Translations under genes and position numbers: made by a program
Notes under the pieces: generated by a model
Seen by the model: the letters and a program-made list of their open reading frames with translations, nothing else
Database searches by the model: none
Told to the model about the DNA's origin: nothing
Shown: piece by piece, positions 1,750-44,000 of the stretch
How the letters are laid out: each line of letters opens with the position of its first letter
How positions within the stretch are numbered: the first letter of the stretch is position 1
Assembly: GCA_017562135.1 (NCBI GenBank)
Contig: QEYB01001456.1
Coordinates: 186,001 to 250,000, forward strand
Direction: 5' to 3'
DNA length: 64,000 nt
From: Dipylidium caninum
Lineage: Eukaryota > Platyhelminthes > Cestoda > Cyclophyllidea > Dipylidiidae

Positions 1750-4700
1750 ATGGCGCGAAGTTTTAGGCGACTACTAAAAAACCACCTCATGGTGCTTCTG
1801 ACTATCCTCTCAGTAGCCGTCGGTGTTGCCTTGGGGATGGTTCTGCAAATCACCAAGCCTAGTGACGAGGTCGTGTTATGGATTGGTATGCCTCTCTTCG
1901 TTGTATGCTTTGTTATAAAGTTCTTTTTACTAACAGTGGGGTGAAATAACTAATAGTGGCTCCTTTTTTTCAATCGCTATCCGAGTTATTCGGAAAAGTG
2001 ATGTTTTGGTCAAGCATGCACGCTCATGTCGGGCCCTGTGATGCTTCCGATTTTTTTGGCAGGATGAGTGCGAAAATTTCACTTGCGATTGAAGTAATTA
2101 TCAACTTTCAGAAGGGGTCATTCTGCTCCCTAGCTGTACCCTCTCGCAACCTCGGTATGAAGATGCTCACTTAGTCGTCCTGAGCCGTCAGTTGGCAGCG
2201 ACTGCCTCCGCTAAGGCGTACCTTTCGACAAACTCGCCTTTGTTTTTGGCCCACTAATGTTTCATCTGCCCACCAACGGTTTCGCGTTTCGTTATTATTT
2301 ACGCCTTGCCTTACTTAATTGGGCTGAGGTTTTACTACATAACCTCTATCATCCGTGTTTATCGTCAATACGATTCCTGTTTTATAGGCTTACCAGGCGA
2401 GATCTTCATCCGCCTTCTTAAACTCATTATTATCCCGCTGATCGCGGCGACTCTCATCATCGGTACGTGCTTCTTTCCTCTGTTCATCGACTTATACAAA
2501 TCGCTTAAATTCGTCTACTTGAGCTGAGCTTTGTGCACAATTTAATCTAGTTCATTGTCCTCGGTGGGCCAAACTACTATGCATATCAATAAGTCGCACC
2601 GAGTGTTGTTGCTTTAGGCCCCCAAGTAGAGATTGGTGGTCAACTGCTGAGACGCGTAAAATTTCTTCCTGGTGATAGCAACGCTGAACACATGTAGGAC
2701 GTGCACTTGTTGCACAAACATACGGTTTATTTTTGTAATATTAACAAGTTAAGTCTAGCGTCACTTCGTAGCTGTTTGTTCTGTCGCCGAAGGCGTCAAA
2801 TGTTGGACACATTTGGGCGGATGGCCGCCGTTCCTTTGCAGAAGCAAGGAAGACCGTTCATTGTGCTGGAGTCCTGCATTCAAACAGCCTCAATCCCTAA
2901 TAGTAGTCCGTTATTTTTCTAGATCATGCAACCGCTGTTGAATACAGTATGATTTCAAGACAATACCCACTCAGCCATTGGCTCATTCATCTATGTAATT
3001 TATTTAGTGATTGCAACGCTGGATCCGAAAGAAAACGGGAAAATGACCGCCGTTACGTTGGCGTTCATCACCACTTCCAATGTGACTGCAGCAATTTGTG
3101 GCACGATTACAAGTCTCTTGCTCAGACCAGGTTTGCACTCGACTTATTTTCCTTCTTGCGCTGATAAAAGATAGTGTGTTTCGTTGCGTCTTGACAATTT
3201 CATACCACACCTTCTTCCCGCACCCATGGGACGCGCATTTCGGTCACCTCGTAGGCTGACGATTATGGGGAGGTGATCGTGCGCTTTTTACCCCCACAAA
3301 CGATGCGCCCATAGGGGAGCGCAGAGAATTTGCCACCCCTTGCTCCAGCTTGGTCCAATCTTAGCAGAGTACTGGACTAATGCTCGCCAAGCTATAGACT
3401 AGGATTAATTTTATCTAAATGCATAAAATATTGTTTCCCTCAGGAAATATGAACCCTGCGAGTGTCTCAACCCCGAATCGTACGCTGACATCGGGAACCC
3501 CACCCAGGACATCAGATATCTTCGTCGATCTGCTATAGTAAGTAATCATCCCCCATGCTACGCACAGTGAGGATTTTGTGACCGCTTATGTCAACGGAAG
3601 TGGCTGCTCACGCAAATGTATGACGGTGGTAGTGTGAATAAGTGTTGAAGTTTTGCAGGCTTTACACTGGGAGAGATGGGTGGAGAAATGAAGAAGTTGG
3701 GGAGCAGGCCTTGTGTGCCTCATTCCCACGTAAATTGTACTGCGTTGGCCGCCTTCTCGAAGGAACTGTTTGCTGAGACGGGCCCACGTGTCTCACTCAG
3801 CCCACGGCGCAACACTACCCACTACAAGGAGGCCGCTGGGCACTTGGTGCTTCCACGCAGTAGCAGTGGTCAAAGGTTTTCGTTTGCGCAGACTCGCGCA
3901 CCGTCCCTTTTGTTCCGGCATTCTTCGCTGGTGTCTGATATTTCGTGTTACCCGAAAGACCTTTTGAAGGATTTGAGTCGTTAATTAACCGATACGAAAA
4001 AGGGCGATCTAGGTCTCCTTCCAGCTTACCTCTGCTATCTGTATTTCTTATCATGGTCACTTTGATGTACCGAAGTGCCTCACTTCTCATTTCCGCCTCC
4101 GGCATTCATTCGATACTTTAACCGGCCCCTTCTTCTGCATCCTTAACGTGGCGTTTGCATCAGCTCCCCCGAATTCATCCTCTCTCACTGTCGTTACCTT
4201 CTTTCAGCAACCTCTTCCCGGAGAGTCTCATTGGCGTTGCACTATTTCAGGTAAGTGTCCTCACTATTCCAAGGTTATTTCTAAAGGTTAACCTAATCAC
4301 ATCTTTGACAGCGTGAAATTATTTTGCTGTTAATTCTCGACGCCTATTTATGCATTGTTGGCACCTCAAATGTCGACTTGACAACAGCACGTGTGAGGGT
4401 GACCACCATTGTGCTAACACTAGCGGTCGCCATCTCCCCTTCCTTGCGTGAGCGCACAGGCCCAGGACTGCCTGCTCGCACCGTAGATTGTAGTCGTTGA
4501 CGAACCCGGTTGGCCGCAAGTGAAGGACCAAGACTATTGTAGCCATGACGCCATTCAGATAGATATTTGGTTGGAAACTATGAAACGGGCGGTGAATGTA
4601 AGTATTAAAGAAAACGTGCAATTTTTTACATTACTTGTTGCGTTAAGTCTAAATAATTCCCGTTTGCATCTACCACTTTCCGCCAGCTGTTGGGCAGATC

Positions 4701-7700
4701 ATATATGCCTTTTTGAGAAAAACTTCGTTTTTATTTAATAAATCATTCAAAGTCCTTTAAACGGTGGGTTCCCGGTGGCCGTGCCCTTATCCTCCCATTT
4801 GCTTGCTCCTTCCGCGTTACTATACAAAGGCTGCTTTTCATCGTAAGTGAAGATTTGGTGCAAAAACGGCGGCAATCGTGCATCGCGAGGGAGGCAACGA
4901 AGACGTGCGCCTGCTCTCGAAGCGGTCGCGTCAGTTCGTACAGCAGACACACAGGAGTCCAATTTCTCACTTCCCACGTTTAGTGTACGTAGATGTTGTT
5001 TGATCACAGCCGTATGCATGGCCAGTTGCGAGTTGAGACCCAAGTTGACGAATAGTTCCGTGTGTGGGCTGGTGGTCTTCCTCGGGATGCCTTGACGACA
5101 CTCGCATTGCCAGAACGAAGTTTGTGGAACGATCGTTGGGCGTTTTTGTGTCATTGGTGGATCCATCTCCGAATGCCTCATTGACGGTTCTCGAGGCTTA
5201 AGGTGTGTTGTGGTTCGATTTGAACTCGTAGAAGAAAAGTAGGTGTAAATCGCGTGTTGTTTACGCGTGGTTTCGGCGAAAAATAAGACAGCGGCGGGAC
5301 ACAAACACGGACAAATGTTGCGAAATGGGTAAGAAGAATGTACTTAAAGTTGATAAATAAAAATGTCGAGCTCGCGTTGCAATGCGTCCTTCTCAGTCGC
5401 GGCTCAACGTGGAATATGTAAAAAAAACTTTTTAATTGTTTCCTATCTATTAACTATTTTTGGTCCGCGCTGCATCCCAGTAATTGTGCTGTCCCCTAAC
5501 TTCAACGACTGTTGGGATTTTAACCGTTTCAGTCTCGGACCTCATACATCACTGCGAACGCGGGGACTGCGGACGAAAGGGTCGAGCGGGTGGTGGGGAC
5601 TGTCGAGTCAGTGAACATGCTGGGTAAGTGGTCGCTTGTCTCGCCTGGTGTTTGGGTTGTCAATGCCCTTGTTATGATCGCTGTTGCTGCTGCCTGCTCT
5701 CATCCGCATAAATTCCCACAATCAGAACCTCTAGTGTCCAAAAATCTTAGGGTGCGAAAACTTCTTTCGCCTGGACGAGTGGTAGATGCGTTGAGATGAC
5801 GGTGCTGACTGGCAGGCGCCCGTGTCCGGCCATAACGAGTAGAGGCAATGTTTGTGATTTAGCCAACTGATATCACTTGCCAATGCGCCTTATCTGCATT
5901 AGGGAATTTAACACATAAGCACCGACTTTACTTTCAGTCTAAACTCACTCCGATACCATCTTTTTCTTTCACATCTGATACGCGTTAGATATGTAGTCTT
6001 GTTCTCTCCCTTAGGCCTGCTTTTCTGTTCCTTCGTTTTTGGCACTGCGGCAAGAAGCGCTGGCGAACAGGGGAAACCGTTTTTAGACTTTTTCAAGTCT
6101 CTTTCGTCCATCGTTTTTAAGATAATGAACATTTTCTTGCGGTAGGTCTTCATCTCCTATTCAGGGTATCACATAAATCTCGGCGACACACTCGCTTGCC
6201 TTGCTAAAGAATCAAATACTCCCCACTTTGAGTGACAATTTATTCCCCTGTTAGTTTTAGATTGATTTTGGGTCTGGACATTTGTTAGTCGAAATTAAAG
6301 TCACCCCTTCTCACTAAAGACTGTCTACAAACTCTTACCACTCCTACCCTACTGCGTTCAAGCATCACCCATACGAGTAAGCTACTGTCCTCCATTTCAA
6401 TCACAAACCGTCGGTTTGAAGTGTCCACAGTTCAGTTGGGTCTACGAATAAACAACTTACAGGGGTATTCTTCGTTGTGCTCCTGCTTCAGCCTTACTCC
6501 GCTCGGGGTGTGCTTCATGATAGCAGGTCCGATTGCCGGCGTGAGGGACTTGGGCAGCACTTTCAGCCAGTTAGGACTCTTCATGGTTACAGTTGTCGTG
6601 GCGCTCATTGTTCACATGATTATCATCTTCACGATCTACGCCATCTGCACTCGATCCAACCCCTTCCGGCTTCTCCCCTACTGCTTTCGCACGTGGCTCC
6701 TCTCCGTCACCACCCTCGCCCCGTGAGTCCCTTGGCCGTCGTCTGTCCCCACCGGGTGCTCTCGCGCCTTGTGATATGGCAGCTTAACGCAAGTCCGTGT
6801 GTCTTTCCACTAACTTAGGCCTTATTTTTCCTTCGTCAGTGTTGTCGCCATTCCTGAAATGTACAAGGCGAGTGACAAATTTGGCATAGACCCGCAAATC
6901 TCTCGTTTCGTCGTCCCACTCACAGCCACTCTGAAAGGCGATGGATCGGCTGTTTTTCTCGGCGCTTCAGCTATTTTCATCATACAACTCACCGATACAC
7001 CGATAACTGTCCCGATGGTTGTAATTGTCATGTAAGTTAAAAAGACTGATTACACATCCGGGGTCAGGATAGCGGAACCTGATCACGTATTCTACCCTCA
7101 GGAGAAGGAAAGTGGTTCTTAACGTGTCCTTCAGTCGGCAGTTAGGGGTGCCAATTTTACTACTTGTCCCTTTCGCATACAAATCGCCCGAGACTGCTGG
7201 GTCGCAAAATAGTTGTCTGTGAATTCTTACCATTCCTGTTCAGTTTGCAAGTGTGTGTTTATCTTTCCCTTTCAGTATACTGAGTGCCTCAGCGGTCTTT
7301 ACAATTCCCAACATTCCAAGTGCTAGTCTGGTCATTTTGGTGACAATTCTTGCATCACTCGGTGTGCCAGTCAATTATGTTGGTCTACTCTTCGCGGTTG
7401 ACTGGATTATGTGAGTCCCCCCTTTCCGTCAACTTAACAATTACGTACATTTTATCATCAGACATCCTGCTTCTTCACTCAATGCCTTTTTAAAGCCTTC
7501 ATATTCCAGCCTCGTTGGGGAATGAGGGTGCACCGCGACTACCGTTAAGCCATATGGGAGCACTTATAAGACCTTACAGTCGCCTCTAATGATTGAACAA
7601 CCTTTTTCGAGACAGATTGATGTTCGTCTCCTCAGTTATAATAAGCACTAAATAGGAGAATACGAACTAGAAAGTATGAAATGTCTTGGGGAATTTAAGT

Positions 7701-7973
7701 GGCGTGGGCCTTTGCCCTACTACAGATTAATGTATTCATTCGTTTATTCTTTTTTGCACTAGGGACCGGTGTCGATCTACGAATTTGGCTGTGCTACACA
7801 TCTACTGTGCGGCTTTCACTCATTTCATCTGCAAAGGAAAATCACAGTCCAACGCCAACAAAGTAGAAAGTTTGCCAAGCGAGGTGAAGGGCAGGACACA
7901 ACCATCAGTAGAGTTAGTTGATCTAAATGACGATGTTTCCATACCACTTAGAACATCGGAAAACATCGCATGA
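1750..7973 (+). CDS. divergent SLC1-family (excitatory amino acid transporter-like) membrane transporter
   Basis: Exons: 1750-1885, 2388-2462, 3008-3130, 3444-3537, 4208-4250, 5533-5623, 6015-6141, 6492-6722, 6840-7031, 7276-7410 and 7763-7973. All phases agree and the joined frame is 1458 bases, giving 485 residues, close to the family size. Family landmarks appear in order: TM1 near residue 12, GLPGEIFIRLLK, a GNMNP loop after TM4, NLFPESLIGVALFQ, then the transport core (TPLGVCFMIAGPI, ISRFVVP, IPSASLVILV, AVDWIMDRCRS). SLC1 proteins are trimeric plasma-membrane transporters that couple acidic or neutral amino acids to sodium. Here the hairpin-1 serines are replaced (TLAPVVAIP, residues 304-312), NMDGT reads KGDGS (339-343), and the TM8 Asn and Asp at the GltPh 401 and 405 positions are Leu424 and His428. 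The substrate-binding Asp417 and Arg420 remain. Family assignment is firm; substrate and coupling ion are open. Confidence 0.88.
4540..5304 (-). mobile_element. mariner-family transposon relic, internally deleted, in intron 5 of the SLC1 gene
   Basis: On the minus strand 5304-4747 an open stretch ends in a mariner catalytic-core signature, FLHQIFTYDEK, where the Asp corresponds to the first catalytic acidic residue, followed by LYSNAEGASKW. Immediately downstream (about 4745-4640) another frame gives the mariner C-terminus: GIYDLPNSWRKVV followed by DANGNYLD. The roughly 100-170 residues that normally lie between these parts, with the other two catalytic acids, are missing, and frames change, so the copy is dead. 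A related copy of the C-terminal part lies at 20890-21150. I could not identify terminal inverted repeats by eye. The insertion is wholly inside an intron. Confidence 0.7.
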
Positions 7974-9637
7974 AGGGTCGGAAATGAAGTAGTTAATTTT
8001 TTGTTATGATACATTACTCTATTGCGATGATTACTGCACTATTGGCTGTCGCGATGCTTCTGCTTTACCCTACGTGAGGAATATTTGCTGAAGGTTGGGT
8101 AGCCTACTGGTCAACGACGCCTTAGGCCACTGCTCTTTTAAAAGTATCCATTAGTGGTGTTTTATAAACGAGCTTACTTGGGTCCGTTTTGTTCTCACAA
8201 TTTTTGAGTGCAAGCGTCGGTTCCTTACTCATTGGCGAAATTTCATGCCGCTGCCTGGGCGAGGAGATGCCCGGTGCTTGCAATTTTCGAACTGCTCCCT
8301 CAAACAGCATGGCTTAGGTAGGCATTAGCCGCCTGATCAGCCAATAAGTAGGAGGCTAATCAACTTAAATTTACTTTGTGTGACGGGACCACATTTGAGA
8401 GCACGCAGATCATAATTTTTGTCGATCGCCTTTTGGATCTCCCTGAGGTGTTTGACTTCAACATGGCGCCTTCATTTTAACCCTTTGAACTTTGTGGTAC
8501 AAGTTGTCGGCGGCCTCACAGAGGATCATGTGGTCTAGTATAGATGAGGAAGGCGTTGTTTTGGGCGTTAAGTTGTGACGGAACTTCCTACAATGGGGCT
8601 CATTCGTAGAATTTTATAGATTGCTCGCCCATTTCTTCACTCACTAAAAACAGCGCTAAAGTCGAAAGAGTGCCTTTGATGTTTTGACTTCCTGCGCGAT
8701 GGTATATGGAACCATGAGCTGTTAATGGTTAATTATGATTTGTCAACCGGGGATTCAACTGTATCATTCAGATGTTAAGCTTGTTCTGTTGGTATTAGCT
8801 CTGATATCCACGTAATATGTAATCAAAATGTAGTTGTTGACACACAAAACAAGCTGAAAAACCACAGAACCATTTTTGCGTGCGTCAAAGCCATAATCGT
8901 GCCATAATGGGGTGAGGCGTTTGTTTGACAAGAATTGCGAAATCCATTGCTCAGTGTTAACCGGTACTGGAACATGCCTCACTGTAAAGCGGGATACATC
9001 TAGGCGTATTAACGGTAGCGAAGCTGCCGGAGCTAGGAGGATGATAGTTAAGGCGTTGGTGATGAGTGGGAGTTAATTTGAATTCGCAGCAATGTACGAT
9101 TTCTTGAATAGGCAGGTATTGCCCACAATACTCATTCGAATCTACCTATGCTAATGAAGTCAAATTTCATGCAACTGATTTAGATTAAAAACGGACAGAG
9201 GTACCACATAAATGCGCAAACACTTTCATATCTATCGCATGATCAGAAAATTATCAATCAATGTTATCCCCATGCCCAAATCATTTTAAGCAATTAAAAT
9301 AAATATGTCAGCGGCATCACAAGAACCCTCCTTGCACTGCTCAAACGGTACGCCATTCATGCAAATTTATTTCCAGATTTTCTTTTTTCACTAGATGTGA
9401 TATCATAAATCAACTATTATTTTACATTTTTTCTGAGGTGTAACCATGGTTCCGCGTAGAGCGCTATTGCGCTTCATTGATGTTTAACCCGGTAGGGCAC
9501 GGTCATCGGCAAGGTTCCTAATTGTCGTAGAGAACCTGAAGAGCTTTCTGTGAACGGAGTTATATACGTCATAATTTATTTTGGGTGGAACTTGGTTATG
9601 GAACATTCTAGTCTTAGTAAAGTCCAAAATAAACTAG
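7974..9637. other. intergenic between the SLC1 gene and IQUB; no gene seen
   Basis: Only short open stretches with no recognisable protein. AT-rich in its second half (9100-9450). A small 5' exon of IQUB should lie here, because the first visible IQUB exon starts mid-codon, but I could not pick it out. Confidence 0.5.
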
Positions 9638-12426
9638 GTACGTGCTCAAGCCAAAATTTGACGTCGTAGCTTTCAAGGCAGGGATTAGTCTAAAGCCGTG
9701 GTGCGTTGTAATACGTGTGATATTCCCGTACAACACAATAATGGACATTAGTGATTTTCCCGACGGCCTGCCATTTGATCTGTTACGTCGTGTAATCTCT
9801 GAGGAATGCTCTGACACTATCAAGAATTTGAGATTGTTCTACAATGGCAGTCTAATAAAAAGCGGAGCTACTCCGAAACGATTGTTTAAGGATTTAACCA
9901 ACGTTCCGGAGATTGAATGTCGCTTCAAGCATCCTTCCCAGACGACTAAAATTCATTTAGGGCGAAGAATGTGCCGACTCTCCCGCACAGACGACATTAC
10001 GGTGTATGTTCACAAGGGAGAAGACGTACATAAGGACAAAGGCCCAGATAACTTGGAAGTAAACCTTGGGGGCGCTAATAGCGGTGCTGGTCAATGTATT
10101 GTTCAAATTCATTGGGTTGCTGAGACACCAAAAAAACCATTTTTGGGTGGATACCGTCGAAAGGCTGACCAGATTCTCTTTCATCATGCTACCTCACAAA
10201 CGCTTCCGAAGCTCTCTGGAACATTTCAGACCCCTATTTTGTCGCGTGAAACGCAGACGTACATGGTCAAACATGTGGAGCAGGAGACTCTTAAAGAGTC
10301 TTCAACCGCAATGCCAAAACCGGGGTTTTGCGCAAACAATATCGATTACAAGGTGATAACACCTAGAGAGTATGAAACTTGGGAAGAATGTAGCAAAAAA
10401 GTCAACCAATGTGTGAGTCTGGAGTCTGTCTTGCAAAAACTTAACTTTATTTTTCAGAGCGTAATATGTTAGTTACCTTTTATTTGACCACTATTTCTGA
10501 ACACGAGTAGTCAAACATTAATTTCGTCTCTAATTCAAGTTTTACTTTTGGCATAATGTTTGATTCATTCTCTGTCTTATTATTTGCCGCTAGCATTGTT
10601 GATCCCTTCAGCACCCTTATCGCGTCGAATGTTTGCCGATGACAATACCAGTTTTATCACTCACATGTTTTATTTATACTGGCAAATCTTTATGTGCATT
10701 TTAGGCACTTATTATACAAAAATATGTGCGACGCTGGCTTGCCAAGCGTCGAGTTGCGCGCCTTCGTATACTTCGTGATGAATATGACAAATTTATTGTG
10801 GAGAAAGAACGAAGATACCTTTATGACAAGTCAAATAGGCTGAGTCATGACTATGACAGACGGGCTAATCCGAAGACCCGGTACGATATTGACAGACTGT
10901 TTAATTCTCTTGAAGTTTGGCGTATCAGCGAAGTGGATAACGTTTATAAAAACTCGGATACCCTAGTCAGTAGAAAGGCAAATATGGGTTCTCTTCTAGA
11001 CAAGGAGGTTGAATTCATAAAAAAAATTATTAAGAAGCAAATCGAGCTTTCAGACTATGGCAAAATGCGGAGGGAGGAGCTCTTCATTGAAAAAGCTGCA
11101 TCAACAATTCGCTGGACAGCTGCACACAACCTTGAACTTATTGAGATGGACACGCCAAATACCATCCGAGGGAAAAGTCTCCTAATTTTGTTCGAAAATT
11201 TGAAGTCTTATAATTTAAATAAAACTGAACGAATGGATTTGCTTCTTACAATCAAGAAATTAGTAGGGGAATGTCCGTCCTCTTTAAGTTGCGATATCGT
11301 GGCCCTTACGGAGAGAGAGACGGAATTGATGTTGAGAAACATTCCACCGCCCATATTAGCTGGTCTTCGACAGCGACTTCTCCATCACTTTGTGCAATTT
11401 TGCAAAAACCCTAAGCACAATCCTGCAGTTGCTCCTTTCCTACCTGTCTCCGACAAGAACGTCCCAACCTCTCGTGCGAAAATGTGGAATGATACGCATC
11501 GATGTATTTCCTGTGGGCGATATCTTCAAACCAAAGAGTTTAAGGTCAGCGCACGCTTAAAGCATTTGGACATATGTTTGTTTTGCTGGCGACAAGGAAA
11601 CCGTGGGCGAGATCGCCTCGACCTGGAGCCATATCGTGTAATTCTCGAAGATTTGCGGAAATCCGAAGCACAACTTATTCACAGAACTCATTATGCCAAA
11701 AGAGCCGAAATTCAAGGAAACATGCTTAGTGCGCTCGATGAAGCCGTCGAAGAACAAAAACGAAGAAGACTAGCCCTAGACTACACCCCAGTTAATACCG
11801 GTGCCATATATAAAATGGAAGATGAAGAGTCTCTGCCTAAAATTGAGAGTATATCCGATCACGTAGAATTGTTGGTCACTGTTCAGGATATTTACTTCCT
11901 TGTAAATAAGGTTTGGGATGGCAGGTCCGCCCTCTCTGGGTGTTCGGAGCTCGGAAATTTGACTCTCTGTCGATGGAAAGTCTCGGAGCCGTGGTCACCG
12001 TGGAACACGCTTCTGTTAACTAAGAAGGAGGCCGATTTGCACATGCAGCTGAAGGACATTCCTCTGATGTCACTGTACGCAGAGACTACGTTAACGCGTG
12101 TTCGTCAACGCCTCGTGATCGGCAGAAATGCCTTTGTACGACTCTGCGCGATAGGACGCAATCTGACCAGGGAGCAAATGAAATTGATTGCGAAATTTCA
12201 ACACCCTGAGGACAAAAATGAGTGCCGCCAGATGAGAAGGCAACCGCGCAGGGATGACGGTAAACCGTTGTATCTACTGTCCGCTGAACAGCGACACAGG
12301 CCAACAGTCCAACCTCCTCAACTACTAATTCCTGTGATTTCTGGTGAAAAAAGGATGTCGGATTTGGGAATCACCAGTTTTGACGAATTGCCTTCTTTAA
12401 GAGGGACCATAAAAGGGACCAAATGA
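9638..12426 (+). CDS. IQUB: IQ motif and ubiquitin-like domain-containing protein
   Basis: Two large exons, 9638-10412 and 10705-12426 (TGA 12424-12426), join in phase 0 (donor GTGAGT, acceptor TTTTAG). The first exon begins one base into a codon after a CTAG acceptor, with an in-frame TAA just upstream, so a small 5' exon is missing from my model. Order: a ubiquitin-like fold near the start (VIRVIFPYNTIMD, then LRLFYNGSLIKSG), an IQ motif (IQKYVRRWLAKRR) opening exon 2, then the conserved IQUB C-terminal half. That half has two CxxC pairs (CISCG and CLFC), a matching LQDIYFL-type helix and EPWSPWNTLLLTKKEA. Length is at least 831 residues against about 790 in human. IQUB is a radial-spoke RS1 component of motile cilia and binds calmodulin through its IQ motif. 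In a flatworm this points to flame cells, sperm or other ciliated cells. Identification is strong. Confidence 0.9.
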
Positions 12427-32649: not shown

Positions 32650-35600
32650 TTAAGACTGCTGGGGGAAAGGGATGTCGGGCGGCGTGAGGTCATCATGTAA
32701 TGAGAGGCAGAACTTTGGGAAAGAACTGGATGGGCTAAACGTCGCCGAAGGGCAGTACGAAGTACCGTAGCTTGTGCCCGTCAAACCGAGACCACTGATG
32801 CTTGAACTTCCCCCAGTAACAGTTGCACCTCCGTGAGAGGACAGCGGGTAGTTAGGAGTGGCGGGATAGGAAGGCGGAGAGTGGCTAGGCCCGCTTAATC
32901 CTCCCGAGGCACCGCCAATGGGGGAGCTTGGGGGCCCCAATTGGGGTGAGTAAGACAACATTGAAGAGCCACCAAATGATGGTTGTGGACTGTAGCGAGG
33001 GGCCGAAGGGGAGCCATAGTACATGTGAGGAGGACTAGGATGGCTTGAATTAAAGTTTGACAAGCTATTCCCTAGAGAAGAACCTGAGTCTATACTTGGG
33101 GAGAAGCCGCTGGGTGTGTCAGAACCGCCTGTAATCCAACTGGAAGCTGACCGTCCGGATGAACTCATGCCAGCTCCGGGCATTGCAGGACTTCCAGGAC
33201 TGTAGGAATCAAGGCTGTTGGGAGATGACCCCGATGGGGACACAGACGAACCAAAACCGAAACCAGATATATTACGTTGTGGGGAGCGCGGCTGATAACC
33301 TACGGAGGCTGGGGAGTAGAACTGCTGTCCTGAGTAGCTCGGTGAACTGCTGTCGGCTCCAAGACTGAAACTTGATGAACTCCCGGTACCGCCATAGGTT
33401 GGCTTGGACAAAGGTGAGTAGCTGGCATCAGCACCTAAGCTCAGACGGCTGGCATATCCGAATGAGCTGCCACTTGCGCTTCCAGAATGGCCGGGACTAG
33501 ACCCCGGTGAACCAATTTCAGTTTGAGGAGTTCCAGCATAAGACAATGGGCTGGCAAATCCCGACATTGCCGCCGGTGAAAATAGCACATCAGGTGTTCG
33601 CGGGCTGTCAAGCTGAGGGCTCCGACCTGGGGAGTAAGAGAGATCATGTCTATGCGTTTGAGGCGAGAACATTGCTTCATGGGGAGTTGTCATGCCGCCC
33701 AAGCGGCTAACATAAGGTGAGGCCTCAATAAGAGATCCAGCTGGGGAAGCAGCAGTATCCCATGGTGTGCTACCGCCGGGACCGCTGGTTAGACCGGGGA
33801 GGCCATCCCCAGGTGTTGCCAAACAAAAACGAGGACTTGCCCACGCTCCGGTAGAAACATCGAAAATACCTCCATTGAATAGTCCAACAGTACCAGCAAT
33901 GGGGATGGGCTGAGCTTCTTGACATTTGACCGAGTTAAGAAGAAGATCAAATGAACCAGTACCGATCCTGGCAAGCTGACCAAGCATTATATTCTCTGAC
34001 ACACCCAGTAGAGGGTCGTATTCAGCGTGGCTCGCTGCCTCCATCAGAATGTCAACTGTTTCCTCAAAGCTGCAACGGGCCAAGGCACCGGTGTCAAGAC
34101 GATTTATTCCATGACGAGTAATAGCCATCAGGTGGCCTTTCACCGTCATGACGTCGCAAAGGAGAGCCAAGTGGCGATAATTGACATAAGAACCATCAAA
34201 AGATATAACATCGTGCATCTCTATCTCAATTGCCTTACGAACGGCTTCAATTCCGAGGGCCTCGAAAATTTCCACTATGTCATTACTTACTGTTCGAGAT
34301 GAATCAACATCCCGCTGGGCAAGTACTTTCATTAGGCATGTTCCATCCGTCTCCAGGATCCATTCTGTAACACAATTGAAACTACCGTCTTTACGGATAA
34401 CAACACGCTGTTTGTCAGTAGTCTTAGGCTGATGCATGTAAACCTTGGATATTTGTGGAATGCCTTGTAAAGTAATATCTGTAAGTAAATTGGCCTCAAT
34501 AAAACGCAAGAATGTATCATCTTCCATTTTATCTGTAGTTATATCTGCGTCTTTCATGTTTTGTTCAAAGTCACTGTTCATGATCCGTATCCGCATCGCC
34601 AATTTCAGGTTATCGTCAGGAATGTGGCAAATTAGATCATTGCCGAACGACTTTGTGATTTTGTCTGCGATTTGTTCCATGGTCAACTTTTTACCCGTCA
34701 TTTGCTTACGTGCAAATTCAATTCTGAGCATCCATGAACTTATAGCATCCATGTTGAAATCAGGCAATTCGTAATAGGTGGAAACCCAGTCCCGATCTTC
34801 TTTCACAACGGTATTCTTTGGATTTGGATCATAGAAGATTGATGTAGAATTCACCAACTTACGCAGAGTCGTGTGCTCCAGACGGGCAACTACATCTTTT
34901 GCATGTTCAGCATCTCTTGCCGCTTGCCCAGTTAGATAAATGGTCATAGAGGGTGTTTTGGGACGTTTACTAACATTGATAATTTCCTTTAACCTCGGAA
35001 CACCCAGAGTTACATTCTTGGAAGAAACACCGGCATAGTGGAAGGTGTTAAGCGTCATCTGTGTAGCGGGTTCACCGAGAGACTGCGCAGCCAAAGCGCC
35101 AACCATTTCACCAGGATGAATCTGTGCCTGTTGGAAACGATTTCGGATTTCTCCAAGAACCCAATCCAAAGCATCATAAGTTAAGCGATGTTCCTGAATT
35201 ATTTTCTTAGCGCAAAGCATTGACCGAACAAGGCAACTCATAAGCAAGACAGCGTTAGAATTAGCTTCTTTGCTAAGTGCATCATCACCGGGCACCACTA
35301 TTAAGCGTTTACATGTATCTCGAACCTGCTCCACCGCCTGCCGTGGGTGAAGAGTTGTCTTAGAGAGAGGGTCGATTTCAAATAGTTTCTGGGCGTTCCA
35401 GATGAGACGTGCAATGTTACAAGGCAACACAACGCGATCTTCAGGTTTTGTGATAATTGACCGTAGCAACTTGCGGTCATTACATAATTCCTCCCATTCA
35501 GCATCTAGTTCGGCCTGAGTTTCAGGGTCGGTTGCCAAACTTCTCACCAGGTCATCTGGCATACAACGTCGAAGCGCACGTTCATTGTTCAGGTCAAAAC

Positions 35601-38600
35601 GGAAGTTATGTTCAAATGCCTCGTCCGATGGCTTGAAGGTTGGTAGCCTCTGGAACTCAACATGAGCAGCGTCCAATCCATCCTCACCGTACCGCAATTG
35701 AATAAGTTGATTTATCTGATTACGCACTGTGCCGTCATACTTGACCATCACAGATTCCATGGCTTTGATCAGACGGCGTTGTATGTAACCAGTTTCGGCG
35801 GTCTTGACAGCTGTATCAATCAAACCCTCACGTCCACCCATTGCGTGGAAGAAAAATTCAGTTGGTGTAAGACCTGCTAGGTAAGAATTCTCGACAAAGC
35901 CTCTCGATTCAGGTCCATAGTCGTCTTGAATAAAGTGCGGAAGAGTGCGATGCCTGAAGCCGAAAGGTATTCGTTTGCCCTCTACGTTCTGCTGACCAAC
36001 ACAAGCGATAACTTGAGAGATGTTAATCCTTGAACCCTTCGAACCAGCAACAACCATTATGTTGAAATTATTGTATTTGGAGAGCGACTTTTGCGCACAA
36101 CTTCCGGTCTTATCCCGAGCCTCATTAAGAATCTTATTGACGTGATTTTCGAAAGTTTGTCGCAATGTATTACCGGGTAAAGGCTGAAAGTCATAATTGT
36201 GGGCCTGATCTATGATATCAAACACAGCATCCTTGGCCTTTGTAATCGTCTCTCCGATTTGCCTGCGGGTTGCCTGATCATAAAGAGTATCTGCGATACC
36301 GATCGTGTGACCCTCGATCAACAACCAGTTATTTATTACGGTCTGTATGTTGTTGAAAAACATTCCCACCACTTCAAAGCTGTTCTCCAAGGCCACTAAA
36401 TGAATGAGAGAACCTGAAGCCGAACCGAGTGTCTTTTTGCAAAGAATCCCAGCCACAAGATCACCATCATCAATTAAGACCTTTGTGTCACCTGGAGAAA
36501 TCCAACGATACGGTCCGTCGTCTTCACCTTCTGGGTGAGTACTATGAGTACGAATACAATTTATCCGACGAGGTATAATCAAACTGAAAAGCTGTTTACC
36601 AGTCCACAATCGTTGCGGCTTGTAAATGGCTGGTTTGGGCATGCGACCGTTCCAGGTTGGAAGATACATTAAAAGATTCATCATTTCAGCCCGACTGATA
36701 AAAACATCACGTTGGGTCATTTTGTAAGCTGCGGTAAGAGTATCTTGGACAATACTCATGACGGGTTTATTAGCCTGGGGCGTTATAACAAGTCTAGGAA
36801 CTCGAGCAAGCTGGCTAATTTCGGCCTTAGTTTCCACGGATTGAGGCAAATGAAGGTTCATCTCATCACCGTCAAAATCGGCATTGTATGGCGAAGTGAC
36901 AGATAAATTCAGACGGAATGTTGACCAAGGCAATACGCGCACTCTATGGCACATCATAGACATCTTGTGTAAAGTGGGCTGACGATTAAAAATGACAAAA
37001 TCATCGTTCAACATGTGACGCTCCACTATGTATCCAACTTGGAGAGTCAAATCAGCTACCTTTGGATGATATCGAAGATCGATTCTATCTCCATTCTCTC
37101 TAACGATAAATTTGGCGCCAGGATACATGGTACCATTCTGAACCAATTTCTGAAGGAATTCAATGTTAGATTGTGTAACACGCTCTGGGTAAGTGAGGTT
37201 CTGGGCAATCGTTCGAGGAACTCCAACTTGATCAAGACACAAATTTGGGTCGGCAGTAATAACGGTTCTAGCAGAGAAATCAACACGTTTGCCCATCAAG
37301 TTTCCTCTGATACGGCCAGCTTTACCTTTCAGGCGCTGTTTGATCGATTTGAGAGGTCGTCCGGACTTTTGGATGGCTTTAGGTAAACCAGGAATGTCAT
37401 TATCTACCAAAGTTGCCACGTGATATTGCAAAATCCTCACATCTTCAGATAAAATGTGTGCCGCAGCTCCATTTTGTTCATCCCGACGCAGTTGATTATT
37501 GGCCTTAATTATATCAGCTAACTTATGGGTTAAGTCGTCCTGATTTCTTGCCGCGCCGTACATCACGATGGCTGGGCGAACTGCAAGAGGAGGAACAGGA
37601 AGGACGGTGCAAATCATCCAATCTGGGCGTGCATACTGTGGATTTAAACCAAGAGCTAGGCAATCTTCATCAGATATTCTTTTGAACACCTCCAGAACAC
37701 ATTCAGCTGTTAAACTTATTTTCTTCTCCTGAGATATTTCATTTTGAACTTTCCATTCTGCAGTCATTTCCAAACCAATTCGTCGGAAATTTGGTTGGTA
37801 TCGTCCACAACCAGTGCGCGTAGTCTAACGAGCTTATTGATTAAAAGATGAAGCAAAAAAGAATACAAGAAAAAGCATGCTTACCTTGGTCTCCAGTTTT
37901 ATATCCTGCTCTCCATTTGTTAATTCTTCAGGTGGGAGACAAGCAGCCCGAGATTTACATTCTTCATACATAAAAGCAAGACGGCGACGGGGATCACTCC
38001 TTGTTTTCCGCTGAATGTCAGCTATCCTCGGACCTTGAATATCCACAAGGAGTTTTGAACAGTAGAAACACACACACCGAAGTATTTTTAGTGTTTTTTT
38101 CAAAAAACCGATATGGAACACAGGTTTGGCGAGTTCTATATGAGCAAAGTGACCGGGACATGAAGCCGTATTCCCACTACACGTCTGGCAAATTGAGGCA
38201 CGATCAACACATCCTTGACGAGGGTCCATAAGACCCCCAAGTTTGGGTTTTCCACCGTCCATCGTCTCTGCATACTTGATTCCCCCATCGGGAACTACAG
38301 ACATTTGTTTCTATATAGTACACAAGACAGGAATAAGAGTAAATGATACGTAATTTATGGAGAACACATATCGAGTTTCTTCCGAGATTTTAATAGCAGT
38401 ATACACACAACAGGCCAAAAACGGAAGCAGAAAATCTGAGAAGAGCATTTACAGGCGCTCAAATGGAAAATTAAACCATCTTGCAAGATGGAGATAAGAA
38501 AGAAATTATAGGCTGGAAAAAGATAGTAAGCGTAAAATGGGTACTGTGAAGCGCAATCCATTTTCAGGAATGAGAAGGGGATCACATTATTAAACAAAAG

Positions 38601-39842: not shown

Positions 39843-41052
39843 TCAAGAACGTTTCCCTGGCATTCTAGGAGACTTGTCGACATCAGATGCCAGGGGCAAA
39901 TTACCCACACTGACTCGTGACAAATCAGAAGCATAATTAGGGTGGACAAAATCAAAATCCGCAAAAAGCTTTTCCAGTCTTTCAGAGGTCAACTCAGCCC
40001 TTGCAAAAAGGCAAGCGCTCGGTCCAAACTTGCATATACGAGTGGCGCCAGGAGAATCGCAAGTAGGCCTTGGAATTCTTAACGAATGCAGGCATACATT
40101 CATCGAATGCAGCCTGTAAGAACACAGAATTGTTTGGATCGACAGAATTATTACGTGAAGAACATCTTAAGTGAGAAAGATAACGAGGCGGTTCAGTTCT
40201 GAGGGAAACGACATCGTCCCAATTGACGTATTTGTAAAATCGCAGTTTTTTGACTCCATAAATACAAGGGCGTTCCTTAGGGTTAAGTTTCAGGCATGCG
40301 TTAAAAAAAGCTCGAAGAGCCTTCGAAAGTTTGTGAAAGTTTTTGATTTTCCATTGACCCGCTTTTGCCCGTTCAATGTCTTTACTCAAATTGCCGGTGA
40401 CTCGTCGAACAGGACCAAAAACAATTTCTGCCATCAAAATGGCTAGGCCCCATATGTCAGCCTTGGTGGAAATTTCTACTTCGGCTGCCACCTCAGGGGC
40501 CATGAAGAGAGGAGTTCCACAAAAATCATCATGTCCGGGAGTACTCAAGTTATGAGTAATATCGTAGGACCGGTCAAAATCCGTGATAAGTACATGACCT
40601 GAATGAGAGATAAGTATATTTTCTGGCTTAAGATCCAGATGAACGATTTGCATATCATGAAGATGTTCCAGCCCACATATAACTTCAGAAGTGTAAAAAC
40701 GTGCATCACTCTCCTTGAGAGGGCCATATTGAGAGAGCAGATCAAATAGATCGAAGCCACTTCCTTTTTCGAGTATCAAAATTGGGAACCCATGTATCCG
40801 ATAGCTACAGAACAGTGTAGACAAAAAAGGCGACTGGCACGCCCGCGTAGCGAGGCGCACAAGGATGCGGTGTTCACGAAGTGCACAAATGACTGCTGAG
40901 GGAGTATGCAGGAAGATTCTTTTGAGTGCGTACGATTTGTTCTCGTTGTCCTCTTTCACAGGAACCGCCTCATATACCAGGGAGTAACGACCGCTCCCAA
41001 TGAATTGTTTCACATCAAATCGCACGAAAACAGTCTCGCGAGAGCACCCCAT
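39843..41052 (-). CDS. AGC-type serine/threonine kinase with HLD and DFD motifs (one frameshift near the C-terminus)
   Basis: Intronless. Starts at ATG 41052. Visible parts: glycine loop IGSGRYSLVYEA, beta-3 Lys in YALKRI, alpha-C Glu in REHRIL, catalytic loop HLDLKPEN (Arg of HRD is Leu), metal-binding DFD in ITDFDRS instead of DFG, activation-segment end FCGTPLFMAPEV, and the AGC C-tail sign VNWDDVVSLRTEPP. An AGC hydrophobic motif FADFDF, with Asp at the phospho-acceptor position, appears in the next frame. It joins if one base is removed from the A run 40005-40009; uncorrected the frame stops at 39994, corrected it runs to about 39843. DFD is typical of plant AGCVIII and fungal flippase-type AGC kinases and unusual in animals. 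All catalytic Lys, Glu and Asp residues are present, so activity is plausible. Substrate unknown; gene subfamily not assigned. Confidence 0.8.
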
Positions 41053-44000
41053 GCCTAGGCATCAAACGGCCACTATGTTCTGCCACGTTGCAGATAATTT
41101 GCGCTCGAGTCATAGTGGCTTTAACTTTTTTTGCACACTTAAACAATTTTCCGAAAATTTCGCATGTATTAACCTTCGCACACTTCCACTAACTCGTCTG
41201 TATCATCAATTTACCGGTCAGCTTTTTGTTTAAATTACAACAACTTAAGAAAGTTAACTTGCGAAATTTCCTTCTTCCTTAGTTATCTCTTACGAAATAT
41301 TTCTCGAGCTCAAGAAATTATTATGTCGTATAAGCGCTTATTTCCAACTTTAATTTCACATAATCGGAATACCCATGAAACAATTGCTGCAAGTCAGATG
41401 AGCCTTTTCTTAATTGGAAATATTATACAAACCGGAAAATTATTGAAACTGTAGGAATAAGAATTCCCTACTTGGTTTGGTCCTGGACCATACGCCGGAG
41501 CATCAAAGGAAAAGAAATCAAGGGAATCGGACACTAATTACATTGGAAGAGTTATCCAAAAATTATGTTATGTATTTCACCTATCACGTGGAAATGGTCA
41601 GAGTAATAAAATTTTGTCTCAGAGACGGTATTCTTCCTAATTCAATTTTATGCACCACTTTGTTGTTTACAATCCTTAACGGCCTTACCCAAGGATCAGC
41701 CCTCTGTCGATTTCACTTACGTCTCTACCTTTTCAGCTGCTGTTCTTCCCTTATTTATAATGTTTTTTTCTTATAGAAACGGTTAGCATAGTAGACAAAT
41801 GTGAGCAGTAATAGATGCCAAATGACAGTAAAGAAAATGTGTCTGCTTAGATAAAAACCCCACTAAGCCGAGAGGGGGACCAAAATTTCCTAACTTCGAA
41901 AATAATCCGCAAGATAAATACTTTGGCGGTGCACTGAGCACCTTATAAATTAGTCCTCTTATCTGTAGAGTGTAGTATTCAAGCAATTGCAGTCACAAAA
42001 CCATATTTTCCACAAGCTTGTAATTGAATAATCTTTAGACCCTTTGCCCGTTCTTTATTATGTTTATTCTATGAAGAAAAATAACAATAAACAATTTCCA
42101 AAGTTCACTTTGTTATTTACTGAACGTTTTCTCTTAACTGAACCATCAGGAACTAGTAAGTTACTCTTCTATCTTACCTGTTTAGTTTTTGTTGAGGCCA
42201 TTGAATTAGCAACCTCATCTTTCACCCTAACTTCTAAAGTAAGGTTACTTTTTCTTAGACCACATAACAGGCGTACTAACATTCGGGCAAAGTGGTTAAC
42301 CTTGTCGTTTTATATAAACTCGGCAGGGATATACATTTCATCTACCAATCAGTCTGTTACCTCTACCGGATAAGATAATTTACGTATCACTAGGAATAAG
42401 GCAAGATGAGAATTCGGGAGAATAGGTTGATGTCAACGACACCAACGATTACAAAAACTTTGATAGGCATTATTAACACACCCACAGCCCCTTCTAAAAG
42501 TGCCTTCGTCAGCCGAGCGCCTCATGACTCGAAAATTTCATCATATGAGATGACGGAGTGCATTTGTTTCGACACACCGGTGGTATCTTAACGTAGAAGA
42601 TTATTTTTTTTCCTGTTGAGAAGGCTGTGAGCATCACCATCGTAGGGCTTGGCTAGTAGAAGGAACAGATCGATGCCCTTGCATGAGGAATTGCTAGTTA
42701 GAGTTTCCACGTAGCATTCATAACTGTCGAGTAGTAACAAACACCTGCAATTTGAAAAACTTGAATTTACCTACTTCTTCAATTCACCTAAGCTAAATCA
42801 GAAGCTATCTGAAACACTCGAAGCTCTGATGCTCATTTTCTCTCTCCACCAATTAGCAGTCAATTTAAAGAGGAAATATGTTATTTTTTTTCGATTGCCA
42901 AAATTGGCTTTAAAATGGCTGATTTGTCTCATATCTGTCTTCGAGCACTTCCTACCGAAACTAGACCTAGCCATCAGAACCATTCATAATTATCCCAAGT
43001 TCATAAAAATGCACTCAGCAAGCGGTTGTACTCGCACAACTAGTCTACACACCCTAAATTCACATGTGCTCGACATCAACACTGACAGTCGGTGGAGCCC
43101 ACTCACGAGCACGAGAGGGTGTGATAACCCTTGAGGTGTGTCGATCCATGTCGAGACCTGATCACGAGCCTAGTTGTTGACGGATACTCCGTCTTATCCA
43201 CTTGAGATGATTACTCTCCTAAGCTAAATAAGCTAAAAACCAACACCTTATTTTAAGACATTTGACCATATCAAATTTTGGTGGTTTCGGGTATCATTCC
43301 CTAAAGGGTTGCACTCCTCTAAAACAAATGGCGCTTGACGGAGTTGCGTGAATGAAGTCTTGAGAAGTGTTGATGCAGATGCTTTAATTCTTACTTTAAC
43401 CACCTCGCAAACAAACTAGACCTTTGACGAGCAATAATTTGGTGGGCAAAATTGAATCATATCGCAAAGGAAGTCCGACAGCAAGGCAGTGCTTCATTCT
43501 CATATGTGTAAAAAGATTGGAAGCATACGAACAACATTCCACAAAGTGCTCAGCGTCGGCACTCCGAAAACGGCCTCCATAAATGGGCGTAAAGTCGTAA
43601 TCGGACTTAACTTGGTTCAAGTTTCATTTTTTTCTCCGAAAAACTAGAGGTTTCATTGCATGATTACAAATTTCAATTATTATTTGAAATTATATCAAAG
43701 GGGTTGTGTTATCAAAATATATGAATTTTAAGCCAAACTCTTACGATTTATGAAATAGTCAGGAAACATGTGGGTTGGAAAAACATCCACCCGGAATAAA
43801 TTGGTTTTGAATGAAATATAAGCATTTTGCACAAGTTTCCATGACATTCGATGTTCAGAAATGCCGAAGGAAAGAGGAAGACGATAAAATCATGGTTCTC
43901 GGACAGACGCGGTAGAAACATTCCTCCAACTACGTCATAAAGACTCTCGAAGAACATTTTCGGGCATCGTCAGTGACTACACACAATCCAATGCGAAAAT

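Follow-up and report, generated by a model that had tools for sequence, protein, structure and literature searches.

A divergent SLC1 gene of the tapeworm Dipylidium caninum with altered sodium-site residues, from an old animal clade

We analyzed a stretch of 64,000 nucleotides from the tapeworm Dipylidium caninum (GenBank assembly GCA_017562135.1, contig QEYB01001456.1, positions 186,001 to 250,000 of the forward strand). The whole stretch is called the window, and its own positions are used below. On the plus strand, positions 1750-7973 carry a gene for a protein with the SLC1 fold, which has 11 exons and encodes 485 residues with a single terminal stop. An initial annotation, made from the letters alone, had placed this gene at 6492..7973. 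That interval holds exons 8-11 but not the whole gene, whose start lies at 1750. Exons 1 to 7 are at 1750..1885 (with the start codon), 2388..2462, 3008..3130, 3444..3537, 4208..4250, 5533..5623 and 6015..6141. Exon 8 (6492..6722) encodes the first part of hairpin 1, exon 9 (6840..7031) the remainder of hairpin 1 and the break in transmembrane helix 7 (TM7), exon 10 (7276..7410) the hairpin 2 region, and exon 11 (7763..7973) TM8, the C-terminus and the stop. All 11 exons have GT-AG borders and their phases match on splicing. Spliced alignment with the Echinococcus granulosus protein P0001 as guide gave the identical 11 exons, the last one ending early at 7889 in this local alignment.

The protein matched the Pfam family SDF with 238 bits, where the curated cut-off is 27.9. 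Its top sequence matches in the Protein Data Bank were human EAAT2, EAAT1 constructs and EAAT3 (with part of the query). A structure model of the orthologue P0001 (pLDDT 86.9, pTM 0.83) matched EAAT2 and ASCT2, and is predicted to have both hairpins and a broken TM7, that is, the SLC1 fold. By its own profile match and by the fold of this orthologue, the window protein is a member of the SLC1 superfamily.

The full frame over 11 phase-matched exons had been taken as a sign that the gene is not decayed, and both the splicing and the conserved orthologues bear this out. It is very improbable that the gene is an artefact of misjoined exons or a decayed copy. Paralogues that appear broken or partial do exist in the same genome (copy a on contig C577, C668 and C3), but the 11-exon frame of the window gene is open throughout, and orthologues 53-70% identical to it with the same motifs are found in records of eight named cestode genera. 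A canonical NMDGT exon elsewhere in the contig was also considered and rejected, since the genome-wide Pfam search, in which only the best candidates were scored, matched only exons 8-10 of this gene there.

To compare the ion sites, the sodium-ligand sets were taken from two published papers and set against the window residues by alignment. Residue numbers 92-405 are those of GltPh, with 306, 401 and 405 converted from GltTk numbering. According to the literature, including the available parts of PMC5110648, Na1 is bound by the D405 side chain and the backbone of 306, 310 and 401, Na2 by M311 and backbone atoms of TM7 and hairpin 2, and Na3 by the side chains of T92, S93, N310 and D312, plus Tyr89. 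At positions 92, 93, 310, 311, 312 and 405 the window protein has Ser, Asn, Lys, Gly, Asp and His. One of the six side-chain ligands is identical (D312) and one is similar; with five of six changed, the earlier statement that most sodium-site motifs are lost is correct. Side-chain ligands are thus lost at Na1 (D405 to His428) and partly at Na3 (N310 to Lys339, S93 to Asn), together with the Na2 methionine. The codons for Ser94 and Asn95 (GltPh 92 and 93, TM3) are at 3076-3081 in exon 3. In TM7, the position of NMDGT reads KGDGS (residues 339-343, 6934..6948), with the Lys339 codon AAA at 6934-6936 and the Asp341 codon GAT at 6940-6942. Comparison with the Na+-coupled EAAT/ASCT/GltPh group showed differences at NMDGT, at D405, in the Na3 set and at the hairpin-1 serines, so the protein would be placed outside that group.

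The substrate site is partly kept. D394 and R397, which we take to be the amine and side-chain carboxylate contacts of the substrate, are present as Asp417 and Arg420 (7764..7775). N401 is replaced by Leu424, which is encoded with His428 at 7785..7799, and T314 is replaced by Ser. The hairpin-1 tip, split over exons 8 and 9 (6712-6722 plus 6840-6855), reads TLAPVVAIP (residues 304-312) and is not serine-rich. N401 and the hairpin-1 serines help to hold the substrate. The initial annotation had read KGDGS, TLAPVVAIP, the Asp and Arg, and the Leu and His of TM8 in the same way, and splicing and alignment agree with it; its statement that the substrate residues are kept is right for D394 and R397 but not for N401 or the hairpin-1 serines. 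Hairpin 2 reads IPNIPSAS, which is strongly unlike the canonical sequence. At residue 318 the window protein has Leu where canonical animal EAATs have Glu. The missing Glu is not distinctive as a mark of the clade described below, as insect rows with NMDGT and D405 (P0149, P0152, P0190 and P0191) also lack it.

A one-residue gap in TM8 would place N423 on N401. This register was rejected, as mollusc rows with both N401 and H405 show the gapless one. In rows such as DRIRTTSNVVSHT, N401 is present and His stands 11 residues after D394. The spacing from Asp to His is equal in the window protein, so the register with Leu at 401 and His at 405 holds.

The orthologue group consists of the window protein and ten cestode records (P0001-P0007, P0009, P0014 and P0018), or 11 rows. 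The sister group of the window row in the gene tree is formed by the E. granulosus and Taenia solium rows, and the Anoplocephala, Mesocestoides and Sparganum rows lie outside, a placement that points to a cyclophyllidean tapeworm. Identity to the window protein averaged 63% per column over the 471 columns scored, 36% of which were invariant. Alignment with related worms had been proposed as a check on the motifs, and the cestode orthologues keep them: K310, G311, D312, G313 and S314 are found in 11/11 rows, S92 and N93 in 10/10, and H405 in all eight rows that have a residue there (P0004 and P0009 stop before TM8, and P0018 is a broken record with no TM8 alignment). Since these residues are invariant while the mean orthologue identity is only 63%, chance or decay is an unlikely source of the changes.

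A Pfam SDF search of the 106-megabase genome (920 contigs) gave matches on eight contigs. One of them, C755, carries the one canonical gene (NMDGT, DRIRTAINVTGD). The other seven, including that of the window, carry divergent copies, some partial or broken, and Lys is found at 310 wherever TM7 is readable. C235 has KGDGS and His405, like the window gene. The remaining copies read KGDGP with Met405 (C244), KGDGP with Val405 (C3, which looks broken or partial), KSDGP with Thr405 (C452), KSDGS (C668, partial), and KTDAS or KSDAS in tandem copies b, c and d of C577, where residue 405 is His. The C577 array (C577:1-29700, L013-L015) holds at least four divergent SLC1 copies, of which b and c appear intact, d fits with small gaps, and a appears decayed with an unreadable TM7 motif. 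In a second cestode group of nine rows (P0011-P0013, P0016, P0017, P0020, P0022, P0025 and C235, that is, L010), S93 is Asp, an extra acid beside Lys310 and Asp312.

We collected animal proteins with two queries, one a scallop protein and the other an alignment. Rows were thus selected for resemblance to the divergent type and are not a census of animal SLC1. They came from molluscs, two nemerteans, the annelid Owenia and acorn worms. Among the roughly 8,000 candidates scored per search there was no trematode, planarian or cnidarian protein, and vertebrates gave only canonical ones, which does not show absence. Of the 149 aligned animal and own-genome rows, 103 carry His at residue 405, 13 carry Asp and 8 carry Gln, while 10 have a gap and 15 some other residue. 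Lys310 occurs in 45 rows, of which 7 come from this genome, 24 from other flatworms, 13 from hemichordates (out of 14 hemichordate rows) and one from another record, P0024; Asn310 occurs in 56 and Ser310 in 33. Five rows from bivalves and others (P0112, P0115, P0121, P0126 and P0136) have GRCGS or GRAGS at the NMDGT position, where the Arg adjoins position 310, and Gln at 405, a further strong departure within the clade described next.

In an 85-row tree built with the motif columns masked, 69 rows formed one clade with support 100/100. This clade comprises the window protein and the divergent flatworm rows together with mollusc, nemertean, annelid and hemichordate rows; P0124 lies inside it yet has Asp at 405. 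The 20 flatworm rows also grouped as one clade (100/100), separate from both the canonical gene of this genome and the canonical land-snail protein P0193. Derivation of the flatworm divergents from the worm's canonical gene was rejected with p-AU 1e-14, for an alternative specified once the tree was known. C577 is represented by a mixed model and C3 by an imperfect one, and C452, P0155, P0156, P0189 and EcDctA have long branches. From the 69-row clade and the rejected origin, it follows that the residue changes belong to an old animal clade and are no recent flatworm accident. Side-chain ligands of Na1 and Na3 are lost across the clade. The sequence state and the clade membership are well supported. 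The initial annotation had proposed to look for a conserved flatworm clade sharing the changes; flatworms do share them, but the clade extends beyond flatworms and D405 to His is the wider change.

The non-flatworm members, from molluscs, nemerteans, the annelid and hemichordates, are proteins that bear the name 'excitatory amino acid transporter-like', with similar hairpins and, in most of them, His405. The mollusc-type rows differ from the window in having mostly N310/D312 or S310/N312 and in keeping N401, while Lys310 is found only in the flatworm and hemichordate rows and P0024. Compared with human EAAT2 (SLC1A2) and other EAATs, the window protein has KGDGS for NMDGT, His405, Ser and Asn for T92 and T93 of TM3, the TLAPVVAIP hairpin-1 tip, and Leu for Glu at 318. 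The same sodium-site differences are seen against human ASCT2 (SLC1A5). The neutral-amino-acid ASCTs lack Arg397, which the window protein keeps.

We suggest, at somewhat less than an even chance, that the protein is a Na+-independent or weakly coupled carrier, working as an exchanger or facilitator. Its substrates would probably be acidic amino acids, and two of the sodium sites would contain Lys and His. An old bilaterian SLC1 subfamily would have given up canonical three-sodium coupling. In the former Na3 site, Lys339 would act as a fixed cation paired to Asp341 and hold the TM7 break in a binding-competent state, so that substrate binding needs no Na3. His428 would occupy the Na1 site and at most render transport pH-sensitive, and the substrate gradient would set the direction of transport. 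Excerpts of PMC12668577 describe the NMD loop of ligand-free GltPh as flipped out, and those of PMC5110648 describe a sodium on GltTk N313 (GltPh N310) that stabilises the repositioned, substrate-bound NMDGT region. The Lys310-Asp312 pair could hold the NMD loop without an ion.

A lysine that stands in for sodium predicts a particular charge pattern at positions 310 and 312. Lys310 is paired with Asp312 in 45/45 rows, Asn310 in 53/56, and His or Gln310 in 4/4. With Ser or Gly at 310 the pairing is found in 0/39 rows, where residue 312 is Asn, Ser, Cys or Ala. The acid at 312 is thus kept where Asn310 could hold sodium or Lys stands, and gone where 310 is Ser or Gly. This pattern, and the presence of Lys310 in flatworms and nearly all hemichordate rows, favors the stand-in role that the initial annotation had raised for the lysine; the small number of independent contrasts weakens it.

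Several points weigh against an uncoupled exchanger. The tree holds about four independent contrasts, of which nearly every one points the same way and none the other way (median sign-test p 0.125); their grouping was chosen after the table had been seen, and they set Lys, Asn, His and Gln against Ser and Gly, not Lys alone. His cannot be required throughout, as residue 405 is Met in C244, Val in C3 and Thr in C452. With N401 and the hairpin-1 serines gone, the protein may have another substrate or no longer transport at all, and this is where the reading is weakest. A backbone Na2 site may still exist. Finally, in the sections of PMC12668577 available to us, uncoupling is possible even where every sodium site is intact, so the residues at the sites cannot by themselves decide coupling one way or the other.

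A surviving Na2 site would lead to a different reading, in which the protein is still Na+-coupled through the backbone Na2 site alone, with one sodium per substrate. We consider this quite unlikely. Na2 consists mostly of backbone carbonyls, and in the accessible literature replacement of the Met in GltTk left the 3:1 stoichiometry unchanged; therefore residue identity says little on Na2. On the other hand, M311 is Gly and hairpin 2 is so unlike the canonical sequence, and excerpts of PMC5110648 describe sodium binding in canonical members as cooperative.

The histidine suggests instead an H+-coupled symporter, in which His428 in the former Na1 site would carry a proton that replaces sodium energetically. 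This is unlikely, if less so than coupling through Na2 alone. His is the prevailing residue at 405 (103/149 rows), and D405 is also lost, to Asn, in the characterised bacterial H+-coupled relatives treated in PMC12668577 (partial text) and in E. coli GltP and DctA, which are annotated as H+ symporters. According to the same partial text, changes at 92, 311 and 405 mark characterised H+-coupled prokaryotic relatives, with a signature of a hydrophobic residue at 92, M311L, D405N and a putative S279E. The window protein has Ser, Gly, His and Val there, the last being Val308 at the place of the putative protonation Glu. As all four positions differ, the bacterial signature was rejected as its type, and the protein would fall outside the bacterial H+-coupled group as well. 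GltP, DctA and that group also keep N310 and have M311L and the hairpin-1 Glu, in contrast to K310, G311 and Val308 here. Moreover, the three relatives C244, C3 and C452 have no titratable residue at 405. Positions 311 and 405 are changed both in the H+-coupled prokaryotes and in the animal clade, but to different residues.

Slightly less probable than coupling through Na2 alone is a non-transporting relative, such as an anion channel, an amino-acid sensor or a regulator, which has retained the fold along with some of the binding site. EAATs possess an anion-channel mode, and the flatworm loss of N401 and the hairpin-1 serines could abolish turnover. However, no alignable row lacks D394 or R397: they are present in 125 of the 126 rows with neither Asp nor a gap at 405, and the remaining row, P0198, belongs to a canonical goat protein that is unaligned at its C-terminus. 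The same counts speak for the carrier suggested above. The modelled hairpins and TM7 break of P0001 also argue against this reading.

The available part of PMC12668577 presents sodium coupling as a conserved feature of the SLC1 family, from archaea to humans. There, Reddy and colleagues report AncInt, a reconstructed prokaryotic SLC1 ancestor that binds and moves aspartate uncoupled from Na+, a precedent in favor of an uncoupled carrier. AncInt is uncoupled with its ion sites unaltered, whereas in the window protein the site residues themselves have changed. Among the matches listed in our literature searches there was no description of the subfamily; this is a weak negative, as subscription papers were largely outside their coverage. 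A planarian paper (PMC5055395) has an EAAT tree in a figure, and the part of it available to us did not extend to the placement of the subfamily. Partial text of PMC6678355, on Taenia pisiformis RNA, lists an 'Excitatory amino acid transporter', which may be any of the paralogues, with a log2FC of 5.97 between stages in one direction or the other. On cestode uptake physiology, the literature search gave nothing usable. We also drew on parts of PMC8431971, PMC10133484, PMC2873418, PMC10873960 and PMC10396302.

Other genes lie farther along the window. On the plus strand, an IQUB-like domain is encoded by a 573-codon frame at 10705-12426. The preceding 279-codon frame matched no Pfam family and may be part of the same gene (9633-12426). 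On the minus strand, a 1724-codon frame at 32650-37824 encodes the RNA polymerase II subunit RPB1 (Pfam Rpb1 domains 1-7). It enters domain 1 midway, so the gene extends upstream, and its Ser-rich tail has zero YSPTSPS heptads and only six YSP. A single 355-codon frame at 39994-41061, also on the minus strand, has a protein kinase domain.

The linkage of substrate to sodium in glutamate transporters is a central question of transport biophysics. This subfamily offers a natural set of ion-site changes in animals, with the intermediate combinations N310/D312/H405, S310/N312/H405 and K310/D312/H405, which allow each step to be tested. Where records from flatworms, molluscs and hemichordates bear the name 'excitatory amino acid transporter', sodium drive should not be assumed. 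It is conceivable, though on balance doubtful, that an ancient bilaterian SLC1 subfamily works without sodium, with a tethered TM7 Lys filling Na3 and a His filling Na1, so that charges within the protein take the place of two cotransported ions. In the tapeworm it has also multiplied: seven contigs carry about nine copies, some of them partial or broken, in addition to a single canonical Na+-type gene. Such proteins could serve uptake across the gutless body surface. In classical work, amino-acid uptake through the tapeworm body surface is reported as partly sodium-independent. If true, this would change the expected energetics of amino-acid uptake for tapeworms, which feed through the body surface.
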